Positions 34,764 through 41,234 of a DNA stretch of 64,000 nucleotides are shown one piece after another. Both the position numbers and the translations under genes were made by a program. The number at the start of each line of letters is the position of its first letter. Position 1 is the stretch's first letter. The stretch spans positions 1,736,001 to 1,800,000 of the forward strand of contig NZ_AP025592.1 of the NCBI RefSeq assembly GCF_023169965.1, read 5' to 3'. Under the pieces are notes generated by a model. That model saw only the letters and a program-made list of their open reading frames with translations, did not search any database and was not told the origin of the DNA. The DNA comes from Anaeromyxobacter paludicola. Its GTDB lineage: Bacteria; Myxococcota; Myxococcia; Myxococcales; Anaeromyxobacteraceae.

Positions 34764-36947
34764 CTAGTGCGACTTCTCTTCCGCCGGGAGCACCGGCATG
34801 AGCCGGGCGCCGAGGCCGAAGAGGAAGATGGTGGCCGCGATGAGGCCCACCGAGATGCCCCACTCGAAGACGCTGGGCGAGTAGCTCGCCGCGGCGATCT
34901 GCGGCATGGGGCCCTTGAGCGTCATCGCGAAGAGGACCACGCTCATGCGGTTGAGCACGATGCCGCCGGTGGTGAGGAAGGCGGCGAGGCCCAGCACGCC
35001 CGGCTTCTCGCGGAGGCTCTTCTGCGAGAGGAGGGCGAGCGGCAGGAGGCCGCCGACCACCACCTCGACGAGGAACAGCGCGCCCTTGGGGTTCGCGCCC
35101 ACGCCGGCGAGCTCGCCGCGGACGGCGACGTCGGCGAAGCGGGCCACCAGGTAGACGAGCAGCGCCCAGAAGGTGACCTGGCCCATCGCGGCGAGCTGCT
35201 TGACGCGGAGGGTACGGTTCCAGGCCTTCGCGATCCACATCTCCACGAGGATGACGAGGCCGAGGCCCGCCGCGATCGAGGAGAGGAAGAACAGGACCGG
35301 GATGACGGGCGACCACCAGAGGTGGTTGAGCTTGTCCGGCATGAGCAGCATGAGCGAGCCGAGCGAGCTCTGGTGCATCGTCGAGAAGGTCACCGCGGCG
35401 ATGGCCAGCATGATGGGCTCGGGCTTCTTGCCCTTCGGCTGGCGGAAGGTCCAGGCGAGGAAGCCGAAGACCACGAGCGCCAGCGCCGACCAGATCACCT
35501 TGCGCGAGAGGAGGTAGACGAACACCGACAGCGCGCCCACCACGTACACCGGCGCGTACTTACGCCAGGTCTCGGCCGCCTTCGCGAGGCCCCACCGCTC
35601 GAACGGCACGGGGAGGAACTCGAGGAGGAGGATGGTGACGTAGAGGCCCACGCACCAGGAGACCTCGAACATCGCCGAGTGCTCGGGAGCCTGCAGGCCG
35701 AGCTGGTAGAAGTGCCACGGCAGGCCGAGGTCGGCGAGCAGCGTCACGGTGACGAACGAGTAGCTCAGGAGGCCCATGAGGACCGCCGAGCGCCCGATCG
35801 AGTAGAGGTCCTTGCGCTGGGCCACGTAGATGAGGCCGGCCGTGGCGAAGGCGCCCGCGGCGACCGCGATCCAGACGAGGTCGAAGACGATCCAGAGACC
35901 CCAGGCGTAGGTGTCGGAGAGGTGGGTCGCCCCGCCGAGGCCGAGGGCGAACCGGGCCAGGAACGAGACGCCGCCGAAGGCCATGAGCGCCGCGAGCAGC
36001 AGATTCGCGGGCGTCCAGAGCTTCTTGTCGAGCCGCTCGAAGTGCGGGTGGTGGTCGTGGGCCTCGGCGGCCGCCGCGGCGGGCTTCGCCGCGAGGGCCT
36101 CCTTGGCGACCTCCGCCTTCCGCTTCTGGAGGGCGTAGGCGCCGCCGAGCACCGCGCCGACGCCGATGACGGCCGGCGGCACGGCGCCGAGGGCGACCTT
36201 GCTGTACTTGGGGTACGGCTCGGTCCCGACCTCGGGGAAGCCCAGCTTCGTGAACGGCACCGACGCCAGGTAGAGGACGTTGGTGCCGCCCGCCTCGTGC
36301 TCGCCGTAGACGTGGTCCACGTACTTGCCGGGGCTCTGGCGGATGCGCTCCTTCGCCTCCTTCAGGAGCTCCTCGCGCTCGCCGAACTTGAGCGCGCCGG
36401 CCGGGCAGGTCTTCACGCAGGCCGGGAGGGAGTTCATGGCCGCGAGCTGCTTCGCGTCCTCGGCCGAGAGGGCCTGGCCGTTGAACTCCGCGGGAGCCTC
36501 GAACTGGAAGCGCTCGTGGCACATGTCGCACTTCGAGATCTTCGGCGCGAGCGAGTCCCACTCCGCCATGGGCACGCCCCAGGGGCAGGCCCACATGCAG
36601 TAGCGGCAACCGATGCACTTGCTCGCGTCGTAGGCCACCGCGCCCTCACCGGTCTTGTGGATCGCGGTGACGGGGCAGGCGGAGGCGCAGGCCGGCTCCT
36701 CGCAGTGCATGCACTGGCGCTTGGCGAAGACGGTGCGGAGACCGCCCGGCGCCTTGTCGTCCTCGAGCTCGTGGAACTGCACCACGGTGAGCGTCTTGGA
36801 CGAGAGGGTGGTCGGGTTCTGGAAGTTGCGCGTCGTCGGGTTGAGCACGGTCTGCTCGCCCGGCATGTCCTTCCACTGCTTGCAGGCCGTCTGGCAGGCC
36901 CGGCAGCCGACGCAGTTCGTCGTGTCGATGAGGTAGCTCTTGCTCAT
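34764..36947 (-). CDS. Formate dehydrogenase FeS subunit fused to NrfD/HybB-like membrane subunit
   Basis: 727 residues. Residues 1-200 are a four-cluster ferredoxin: CVGCRACQTACKQW, CMHCEEPACASACPV, CIGCRYCMWACPWGVP and CDMCHERF with ACVKTCPAGALKFG. A linker holding one helix (VALGAVPPAVIGVGAVLGGA) leads to about nine or ten membrane helices (about 310-715) of NrfD/HybB type (TYAWGLWIVFDLVWIAVAAG; LPWHFYQLGLQAPEHSAMFE). The protein would pass electrons from formate oxidation to the quinone pool. These are usually two genes; here no stop or start separates them. The gene lies 24 bp downstream of fdhA. Confidence 0.92.
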   Translation of the reverse strand: MSKSYLIDTTNCVGCRACQTACKQWKDMPGEQTVLNPTTRNFQNPTTLSSKTLTVVQFHELEDDKAPGGLRTVFAKRQCMHCEEPACASACPVTAIHKTGEGAVAYDASKCIGCRYCMWACPWGVPMAEWDSLAPKISKCDMCHERFQFEAPAEFNGQALSAEDAKQLAAMNSLPACVKTCPAGALKFGEREELLKEAKERIRQSPGKYVDHVYGEHEAGGTNVLYLASVPFTKLGFPEVGTEPYPKYSKVALGAVPPAVIGVGAVLGGAYALQKRKAEVAKEALAAKPAAAAAEAHDHHPHFERLDKKLWTPANLLLAALMAFGGVSFLARFALGLGGATHLSDTYAWGLWIVFDLVWIAVAAGAFATAGLIYVAQRKDLYSIGRSAVLMGLLSYSFVTVTLLADLGLPWHFYQLGLQAPEHSAMFEVSWCVGLYVTILLLEFLPVPFERWGLAKAAETWRKYAPVYVVGALSVFVYLLSRKVIWSALALVVFGFLAWTFRQPKGKKPEPIMLAIAAVTFSTMHQSSLGSLMLLMPDKLNHLWWSPVIPVLFFLSSIAAGLGLVILVEMWIAKAWNRTLRVKQLAAMGQVTFWALLVYLVARFADVAVRGELAGVGANPKGALFLVEVVVGGLLPLALLSQKSLREKPGVLGLAAFLTTGGIVLNRMSVVLFAMTLKGPMPQIAAASYSPSVFEWGISVGLIAATIFLFGLGARLMPVLPAEEKSH

Positions 36948-36971: not shown

Positions 36972-39900
36972 TTAGGCGTTCCGCTGCCCCTCCACCTTCT
37001 TCACGTTGACGAGGCACGCCTTGGTCTCTTGCGTCCCGGCTCCCGGATCGACGGCGTCGATCGTCAGGTAGTTGGTCGAAGGACCAGTCGACAGACCCTT
37101 GAAGCCCCAGTTGTAGGGCATCCAGACCGTGGTGACCTCCTTGCCGTTGATCATGAGCGGCTGCATGCGCTTCGTGACCACCGCCTTCACGACCACCTCG
37201 CCGCGGGCGCTCCAGACCTTGACCTTGTCGTTGCTCTGGACCCCGAGCTGCTTCGCGAGCTTCTCCGGGAGCTCCACCACCGGCTCCGGGAAGAGCTCGT
37301 TGAGCCAGGGCACGTTGCGGGTCGTGGACCCGGCGCACCAGTGCTCGGCGATGCTCGACGTCATGAGCACGTAGGGGAACTCACCCGAGGTGCCGATGGG
37401 CTGCTTCCCCTTGACGCGCGGGTACTTCACGCAGGGGTTCACGGACACCTTGGGGTGGAGCACGTTGACGGTGGGGCTCTCCACCGGCTCGTACATCTCC
37501 GGCAGCGGGCCGTCCTTCGGCACGTAGCTCGAGTCGCGCGGCAGGTCCTCGGGCTTGGCGCCCGGGTCCTTGTAGACGCCGGCGAAGAGCCGGCCCACGC
37601 CCTCGGCGTTCATGCGGAACGCCTTCTGGCCGTTCGGCGTGTCGGGGCCGTCGGTCGCCACCGGGACGTCCGGCGTGTCGTTGCCCTTCCACTTCTTCTC
37701 GGCCTCGTCCCACCAGATGAGGGGCTTGGTGCCGGGCCAGGGCTTGCCGTTGGCGTCGCAGGAGGCCCGGTTGTAGAGCACCTTCATGTTGCCGGGCCAG
37801 GTCCAGGCGAAGCCGGGGTACAGCCCGAGCCCCGTCGGATCCTTCATGTCGCGCCGCTTCGAGAGGTTCTTCCCGCCGCCGAAGACGCCGGCGTAGATCC
37901 AGACGCCCGAGGAGGTGGAGCCGTCGGCCTCGAGGTCGGGGATCTTCTTGATGAACTCCCCGGTCTTGAGGTTCTTGCCGCTGATCTCCTTCAGCACGTC
38001 CTCGCAGCTGGCGTAGTCCCACGCCGCCTTGAGGATGGGCTGATCCTTGGGATCGGTGGAGCCCTTGTAGAGGTCACGCACCTTCTTGAAGACGGTGTCG
38101 ACGATCTCGTAGTCGGTCTTGGCCTGCCCCGGGGGCTGCACGCCCGCGTAGCGCCACTGCACCAGGCGGCCGGAGCCGCTGATGGTGCCTTCCTTCTCCA
38201 TGAAGTAGGCGGCGGGGAGGAGGATGACCTCGGTCTTGATCGACTTCGGGTCCACGCCGGGCCGCTGCCAGAAGGCGGCGGTCTCGGTCTCCCAGAGCTC
38301 CTGCACCACCAGCGTGTCGAGGGCGGCGAGGCCCTCCTGCACCATGGTGAGGTTGGCGTTGGTGACCATCGGGTTCTGCCCGATGGTCCAGAGCATCTTC
38401 ATCTTGCCGGCGATGGCCGCCTCGAAGATGCCGTAGACCGTGTAGTCCTTGGCCGCGTCCTTCTTCGGCAGGAAGCCGAAGCCGAAGTCGTTCTCCTTCT
38501 GCGCGTTCTCGCCGAACCAGGCCTTGAGGCCGTTGATCGTCATCTTCGCGCGGAAGGTGCCGTTGTCCTTGGTCCAGGCCTCGAGCGTCGGCTGGTTGTG
38601 CACCGGGTAGTTGAGGTACCCGAACATGTAGCCGTGCAGCACCGACATGTCGCAGGCGCCCTGCACGTTCGGCTCGCCGCGCAGCGCGTTCACGCCGCCG
38701 CCCATCTTGCCGATGTTGCCGAGCAGCATCTGCAGGATGCCGTAGCAGCGGATGTTCTGGATGGCGACCGTGTGCTGCGTCATGCCGAGCGCGTACATGA
38801 TCGTGCCCGGCTTGTTCGCCGCCATGGTCTCGGCGATGAGCTTGATCTGCGCGGCGGGGACGCCGGAGATCTGCTCGCCCACCTCGGGGGTGTAGCGGCT
38901 GAAGTGCTGCTTCAGCTTCGAGAAGGCGCAGCGCGGGTCGTCGAGGCTCGCGGCCTTCTGCGGCTTGTGGGTCTTCTTGTCGAGGTCGTAGCTCCAGGAG
39001 GCCTGGTCGTACTTGTGCTTGTCCTCGTGGAAGCCCGTGAAGAGGCCGTCGGCGAAGCCGAACTCGTCGCTCACCGTGTAGAGCGCGTTGGTGTGCAGCT
39101 TCACGTACTCCTCGTCGTAGAGCTTGTTGACGAGGATGTGGTTGATGACCGCCGAGAGGAACGCGATGTCCGCGCCGGGCCGGATGCGGGCGTAGATGTC
39201 CGCCATCGACGAGGTGCGGTTGAAGCGCGGATCGACGTGGATGATCTTGGCGCCGTTCTGCTGCGCCTTGCGCATCCACTTGAGCGCCATCACGTGGTTC
39301 TCGGCGCAGTTGCTACCCTCGATGAGGAACACCTTGGCGTGCTGGAGATCCGCCCAGTTGTTCGTCATCGCGCCACGGCCGAACGAGGCCCCCAGACTGG
39401 GGACCGTGGGGCTGTGTCAAAGTCGTGCCTGGTGCTCGATGAAGCTCGTGCCGAAGAGGCGCCCCATCTTGTTGATGAGGTAGCACTCCTCGTTGGTGTT
39501 CTGGGCGCCGCCGAGGAAGGCGAGGGAGTCGGTCCGGTTCACCGGGTACTCGACGTCGCCGTCCTTCTGCGTGGCGATCCAGGTCTGATCGCGGGTCTCC
39601 TTGATCTTCTTCGCGATCTTCTCGTAGGCCTGCTCCCAGCTGATCTCCTGCCACTTGTCCGAGCCCGGGGCCCGGTACATCGGCACCTTGACCCGGCGCG
39701 GCGACTCATGGGTCGCGCGCATGGCGGCGCCCTTGGTGCAGAGCGCGCCCTGGTTGATGGCGTGGCCCGGATCGCCCTCGAGGCTGACGAGCTTGCCGTC
39801 CTGGACGTGACCGACCATGCCACAGCCGCACGAGCAGAAGTTGCAGGCGGTGGTGTACTCCTTGGCCCCCTTGAGCTTCAGTCCGCGGTTGGCTGCCTGG

Positions 39901-39992
39901 ACCTGCTTCTCGCTGAGCCCGAGCTCCGCGAGGGCGAGGCCGGTACCCACACCGGCAGTGACCTTCAACCACTGTCTTCTACCGAGACTCAT
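36972..39992 (-). CDS. fdhA: Selenocysteine formate dehydrogenase catalytic subunit, Tat-exported
   Basis: 1006 residues if UGA at 39417-39419 is read as Sec192. The start at 39992 gives a Tat signal (MSLGRRQWLKVTAGVGTGLA). The N-terminal [4Fe-4S] motif is CNFCSCGCGMVGHV, with a later LCTKGAAMRA. The UGA is preceded by TSFIEHQARL and followed by HSPTVPSLGASFGRGAMTNN, matching the Sec site of respiratory FdnG-type enzymes. The frame then runs without a break for 816 codons through molybdopterin domains (FLIEGSNCAENHVMALKWMR; YALGMTQHTVAIQNIRCYGI). It oxidises formate in the periplasm using a bis-MGD cofactor. Apparent two-part coding is therefore recoding, not a frameshift. Confidence 0.93.
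39387..39405 (-). promoter_or_regulatory. Bacterial SECIS-like hairpin in fdhA
   Basis: Starting 11 nt after the UGA, the mRNA can form a 7-bp stem GGUCCCC / GGGGGCC (one U-G pair) with the 5-base loop AGUCU. The distance and the GU-containing loop are close to the E. coli fdhF SECIS (loop GGUCU), the SelB-binding element directing selenocysteine insertion. Confidence 0.85.
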
Positions 39993-40051
39993 CCCTGGTT
40001 GTCCTCTCTTGGCCGGGCGCCCGTGGGCGCACGATTTGCGAACCGATCCGA

Positions 40052-40169
40052 CCGCTTTTTGAAGCGGGCGCACCTTTTGCCCCGCCAAGGACCTCCGGAC
40101 GGGGCGCGCGGGCGGTAGATGCTGGAATCGAGCCAGCACGATTCCGGCGCCTTCCGGCGCCCTTACCGC
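40052..40169 (-). promoter_or_regulatory. Structured leader upstream of fdhA
   Basis: The 258-bp gap between moaA and fdhA contains several perfect stems. An outer stem GCGGTA/TACCGC (40112-40117 with 40164-40169) encloses two hairpins, GGAATCG/CGATTCC (40124-40130 with 40139-40145) and GGCGCC/GGCGCC with a GGAA tetraloop on the minus strand (40146-40151 with 40156-40161). Together they form a compact three-way junction. Two more hairpins follow toward fdhA, at 40079-40105 (GCCCCG/CGGGGC) and 40052-40067 (CCGCTT/AAGCGG). No known riboswitch class was recognised with confidence. Confidence 0.5.
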
Positions 40170-40250: not shown

Positions 40251-41234
40251 TCAGCCGCCGATACCGGCCAGGTTCCAGGCCAGACCGGCCCGGCCCTCGG
40301 AGAGCCGGTGCGCCCGCGGCTTCTCTCCGACCAGCTCGGCGAGCCGGGCCGCCAGCGCCGGGCCCTGGCCGTCGGACTGCAGCAGCGGCCGCAGCGACGC
40401 GTCCTTCTCGCCGAACAGGCAGAGCCGCAGCGCCCCCTGGCTCGAGACCCGGAGCCGGTTGCAGCCCTCGCAGAAGTGGGCGGCGGTGGGCGCGATCACG
40501 CCGACGGTGCCGGCGTGGGCCGGGTGGCGGTACTCGACGGCCGGGCCGTCGGTCGCGCCGCGAGGGGCGGCGGCGAAGCCGCGGGCGGCGAGCGCCTCCT
40601 CGACCCAGGCCACCGGGCGGTGGTTCGCCGCGTAGTAGCCCTGGTCGCAGCCCGTGCGCATGAGCTCGATGAAGCGGACCGAGATCGGCACGTCCCGCGT
40701 CCAGCCCACGAAGCGCGCGAGCTCGGCCTCGCCCAGGCCACGGAGCAGCACCGCGTTCACCTTGACCGGCGCGAAGCCCTCCGCGAGCGCCGCCTCGATC
40801 CCGGCGAGAACCTGCGAGAGGAGCGGCCTCCGCGTGACCTCCTCGAAGCGCCGCGGGTCGAGGCTGTCCACGCTCACGTTGAGGGCGGTGAGCCCGGCCT
40901 CGCGGAGCGGGCGGGCCAGCCGGACGAGGTCGTAGCCGTTGGTGGTGAGCGCCACCTTGCGGATGCCCGGCGTCCCGGCCACCGCCTCGACGAGCTGGAC
41001 CAGATCCTTGCGGACCGTCGGCTCGCCGCCGGTGAGCCGGACCTTCTCGACGCCCAGGCCGGCGAAGGCGGCGGCGAGGCGGCGGACCTCGGCGGGCGTG
41101 AGCGGCGCCGGGAGCCCGGGCGTGGCCCGGTAGCCGTCGGGCAGGCAGTAGGCGCAACGGAAGTTGCACGCCTCCGTGACCGAGAGCCTGAGGTAGGTGA
41201 AGCGACGCCCGAAGGCGTCCTGAAGGCGCAGCAC
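40251..41234 (-). CDS. moaA: GTP 3',8-cyclase MoaA (molybdenum cofactor synthesis)
   Basis: 327 residues from GTG at 41234, preceded by AAGGGG; an upstream extension reads through a structured leader and is unlikely. Radical SAM motif TEACNFRCAYC gives Cys23, Cys27 and Cys30. The C-terminal second [4Fe-4S] cluster ligands are in AHFCEGCNRLRVSSQGALRL then C. The protein ends in Gly-Gly (NLAGIGG), which MoaA needs for activity. It converts GTP to 3',8-cyclo-7,8-dihydro-GTP, the first step of molybdopterin synthesis. Placement next to the Mo/W-dependent formate dehydrogenase supports a shared function. Confidence 0.96.
   Translation of the reverse strand: MLRLQDAFGRRFTYLRLSVTEACNFRCAYCLPDGYRATPGLPAPLTPAEVRRLAAAFAGLGVEKVRLTGGEPTVRKDLVQLVEAVAGTPGIRKVALTTNGYDLVRLARPLREAGLTALNVSVDSLDPRRFEEVTRRPLLSQVLAGIEAALAEGFAPVKVNAVLLRGLGEAELARFVGWTRDVPISVRFIELMRTGCDQGYYAANHRPVAWVEEALAARGFAAAPRGATDGPAVEYRHPAHAGTVGVIAPTAAHFCEGCNRLRVSSQGALRLCLFGEKDASLRPLLQSDGQGPALAARLAELVGEKPRAHRLSEGRAGLAWNLAGIGG

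Follow-up and report, generated by a model that had tools for sequence, protein, structure and literature searches.

In bacterial formate dehydrogenases of the FdhA type, selenocysteine (Sec) is inserted at a UGA codon under the guidance of a hairpin, a mechanism that is textbook knowledge. The Desulfovibrio formate dehydrogenases, i.e. the Desulfovibrio gigas tungsten enzyme (1h0h) and FdhAB, are soluble, periplasmic enzymes. A guanosine in the hairpin loop serves as a criterion for the bacterial Sec insertion element (SECIS) (PMC1088965). In Anaeromyxobacter dehalogenans, 11 selenoproteins were reported in 2006, with three FdhA, plus SelD (PMC1794560, Table 3), and replacement of Sec by Cys has been described as mostly confined to FdhA and SelD (PMC1794560).

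We analysed a stretch of 64,000 nucleotides from the genome of Anaeromyxobacter paludicola (hereafter the window), in which fdhA had been predicted to encode a selenoprotein. Plain ORF calling splits this gene at the UGA codon into two blocks on the minus strand (39417-40139 and 36972-39368), as had been anticipated for an automatic caller. When read through, the sequence forms one continuous frame that starts at the ATG at 39992, which is preceded upstream by AGAGAGGA, ends at the stop at 36972 and contains this UGA as its only internal stop codon. The product of 1006 aa and 110.9 kDa (~111 kDa) scores 1018 bits against TIGR01553, the model for the formate dehydrogenase-N alpha subunit (cut-off 814), and carries a twin-arginine-like motif, GRRQWLK, in its N-terminus. 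The original prediction had placed the UGA correctly and left the strand unstated; all features at the locus in Table 1 lie on the minus strand.

Table 1. Features of the fdhA locus and of the Sec machinery; positions refer to the window unless marked as genome positions.
Feature	Position	Strand	Basis
fdhA, FdnG-type formate dehydrogenase alpha subunit, predicted selenoprotein	36972..39992	minus	TIGR01553; read-through frame; homology to 1kqf and 1h0h
UGA codon, read as Sec192	39417..39419	minus	Exact sequence; column conserved in Sec relatives
Bacterial SECIS hairpin, 7 bp (8 with A-U), loop AGUCU	39387..39405	minus	Rfam SECIS_3; covariation; loss in Cys relatives
Fused electron-transfer subunit, 727 aa: 4Fe-4S (HybA/HmcB-like) and NrfD/HybB-like membrane domain	34764..36947	minus	Domain profiles
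fdhE-like accessory gene, 302 aa	33826..34734	minus	TIGR01562 E = 3e-20; PF24860
moaA, GTP 3',8-cyclase (molybdenum cofactor), start approximate	40251..41233	minus	TIGR02666 above cut-off; Pfam
Moco (molybdenum/tungsten cofactor) riboswitch aptamer before moaA	41223..41371	minus	RF01055 64.6 bits, cut-off 36
tRNA-Sec, anticodon UCA	genome 757742-757836		75.1 bits
selD (L111)	G000:C1:4260864-4261793		391 bits; own in-frame UGA

The UGA codon occupies the active-site Sec column and is followed by a His codon. The peptide across it, EHQARL-U-HSPTVPSLGA (which can also be written EHQARL-U-HSPTVPSLGASFGR), was identical to that originally proposed when the sequence was read again, and Sec is residue 192 counted from the ATG. 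The alignments of FdhA span the whole chains of both E. coli FdnG (1kqf; E = 8e-223) and the D. gigas enzyme (1h0h), and in both the residue encoded by UGA aligns with selenocysteine (printed X), i.e. with Sec196 in the case of FdnG. Thus, the UGA lies exactly at the known Sec site, as had been claimed. The Desulfovibrio FdhAB structures (6sdv and others) are likewise full-length homologues of FdhA.

The hairpin was likewise found as described, with the loop AGUCU and a 7-bp stem beginning 11 nt past the UGA: 39405-39399 pairs with 39393-39387, the loop corresponds to 39398-39394, and an optional eighth A-U pair shrinks the loop to GUC. Numbered from the U of the UGA, the stem pairs are 15-33, 16-32, 17-31 (U-G), 18-30, 19-29, 20-28 and 21-27 with the optional pair 22-26, while G23 and U24 sit in the loop; the hairpin thus has the loop guanosine expected of a bacterial SECIS. 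The window contains 971 UGA triplets when both strands are counted, and only the one in fdhA is followed by all seven pairs at that spacing; its loop also carries G23-U24. The 59-nt region 39364-39422 scores 62.7 bits against Rfam SECIS_3 (E = 3.4e-14), which is 0.3 bit below the gathering score of 63. The folding energy of the fdhA hairpin alone is not unusual (z = -1.0) and, because it is not significant, was left out as evidence. The case for the hairpin rests on position, sequence and covariation and not on thermodynamic stability.

Among relatives, FdhA is closest to a protein of the Myxococcales bin BP5.bin31 (87% identity) followed by those of Anaeromyxobacter species (73-77%), which places the organism in or close to Anaeromyxobacteraceae. 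The original prediction had named close relatives with a Cys codon and no SECIS as evidence against it; all 11 closest matches within the family (70-87% identity) have UGA and none has Cys, and the hairpin is kept as well. The Anaeromyxobacter orthologues (L054-L057, L097) retain both elements. In the same alignment column, all Sec relatives have UGA while the remaining relatives have TGC or TGT for Cys.

In a gap-free alignment of 32 UGA-bearing relatives, the stem was paired in 94.6% of cells, a fraction that fell to 78.3% in shuffled alignments and did not exceed 57% with the partner strand slid. Changes of both sides of a stem pair occurred in 31 cells (shuffled mean 9.9), a number reached by none of 500 shuffles, and G23, U24 and U17 were invariant. 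Conservation of the hairpin is partly protein-driven, as the sequence after the UGA encodes a conserved peptide; however, protein constraint alone is insufficient to explain the conserved stem because some paired changes replace amino acids; for example, the change from CCC..GGG to GGC..GUC in Robertmurraya and a Bacillota bin turns PSLG into GSLS, and a paired stem change in the paralogue group turns PSLG into ASLA.

A true stop at the UGA would mean that fdhA is a pseudogene or consists of two genes, or that the stop arose from a sequencing error. While the splitting of fdhA by standard ORF calling is in line with this explanation, UGA is conserved at this column, together with a covarying hairpin, in independent genomes that belong to different phyla and reach down to 37% identity, and the downstream half of fdhA can be aligned with solved enzymes from end to end. 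We therefore consider a true stop extremely improbable.

The genome, a single contig of 4.59 Mb, encodes the Sec machinery that the original prediction had required, i.e. selA (514 bits) and selB near 3.73-3.75 Mb, selD and tRNA-Sec, all located outside the window as had been proposed; the absence of selB and of the tRNA-Sec gene selC had been named as contrary evidence, and both are present. SelB has 648 aa and the SelB winged-helix domains. The selD gene likewise contains an in-frame UGA (SLSHGAG-U-ACK). The genome contains four SECIS_3-like sites, one for each UGA-containing formate dehydrogenase gene, i.e. fdhA and the three paralogues G000:C1:4405917, 511800 and 4193851 (L108-L110); two paralogues exceed the SECIS_3 gathering score, and 4193851 scores weakly (30 bits). 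The paralogues 4405917 and 511800 were also considered as double-Sec enzymes ('2 TGA'); this was rejected, as each has one Sec codon and an ordinary terminal UGA.

Cys orthologues were confined to more distant relatives, which lacked the hairpin and whose genomes had no selA above cut-off. Of the stem cells in 18 such orthologues, 56% were paired, and none of the 18 formed the central pair 20-28. All 20 Sec genomes contained selA above cut-off, and none of the 16 Cys genomes did; these rows are related and thus do not represent 36 independent trials, and some of the bins may be incomplete. On the protein tree, the Sec/Cys state requires at least three changes. One Cys orthologue, L095:1720 from Acidobacteriales bin_312, is nested in a Sec clade, has a broken hairpin and comes from a genome without selA above cut-off; this likely represents a change from Sec to Cys. 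Replacement of Sec by Cys with joint loss of hairpin and selA within one orthologous group illustrates the trend already described for FdhA.

That the UGA is read as another amino acid such as Trp or Cys, whether through general suppression or an altered genetic code, has a negligible likelihood: we found no support for it, UGA terminates the paralogues 4405917 and 511800 and is hence a normal stop elsewhere, the Sec pathway is complete, the hairpin matches the Sec element SECIS_3, and Cys orthologues occur solely in genomes without selA.

The neighbouring genes fit a formate dehydrogenase. The Moco riboswitch, moaA, fdhA, the gene for the fused Fe-S/NrfD subunit and the fdhE-like gene share one strand, and the end of the riboswitch touches the probable start region of moaA. 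The fused subunit is kept as a single gene adjoining fdhA in about 14 loci; distant relatives match its Fe-S part only. The fdhE-like protein falls under the NCBIfam cut-off for FdhE and over the Pfam cut-off for FdhE_C. Both genes stay beside fdhA in relatives from Myxococcota and Acidobacteriota.

Altogether, the computations demonstrate the frame, the codon, the hairpin with its conservation and covariation, the full Sec machinery, and the joint loss of hairpin, selA and UGA. We conclude that fdhA almost certainly encodes a Sec-containing alpha subunit of the FdnG type, with Sec inserted at the UGA by means of SelB and the hairpin 11 nt downstream. In total, the gene and hairpin were confirmed as observed in the original prediction, and the sequence analyses support that its selenoprotein interpretation is right. 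By analogy with E. coli FdhF/FdnG, SelB carrying Sec-tRNA(UCA) would bind the hairpin and insert Sec, and Sec192 would become an active-site ligand of the Mo/W-bis-pterin cofactor. FdhA would probably be exported by the twin-arginine pathway, and the product of the adjoining gene, the fused Fe-S/NrfD membrane partner, would receive the electrons from formate.

The selenoprotein finding is already known in kind, i.e. correct and ordinary, and its value lies mainly in annotation, as automatic calling would cut an intact respiratory enzyme in two. Moreover, it indicates that the host uses selenium for formate oxidation. A. dehalogenans FdhA belongs to the same enzyme family in apparently the same taxonomic family, with three FdhA there compared to four UGA-containing formate dehydrogenase genes here. 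The fdhA hairpin resembles the E. coli fdnG/fdhF element in starting 11 nt on and in its loop G-U; however, its top stem is rich in C-G pairs, and it has a U17-G31 wobble, whereas U17 is bulged in E. coli fdnG/fdhF. It is unlikely, although conceivable, that this GC-rich stem with a wobble-paired U17 is a SECIS variant that is read slightly differently by the host SelB than by E. coli SelB. Finally, the partners of FdhA differ from those of the described enzymes: in contrast to the Desulfovibrio enzymes, the partner adjoining fdhA is a membrane protein, and while E. coli FdnG has a separate FdnH and the cytochrome b FdnI as partners, a single fused Fe-S/NrfD protein is encoded here.
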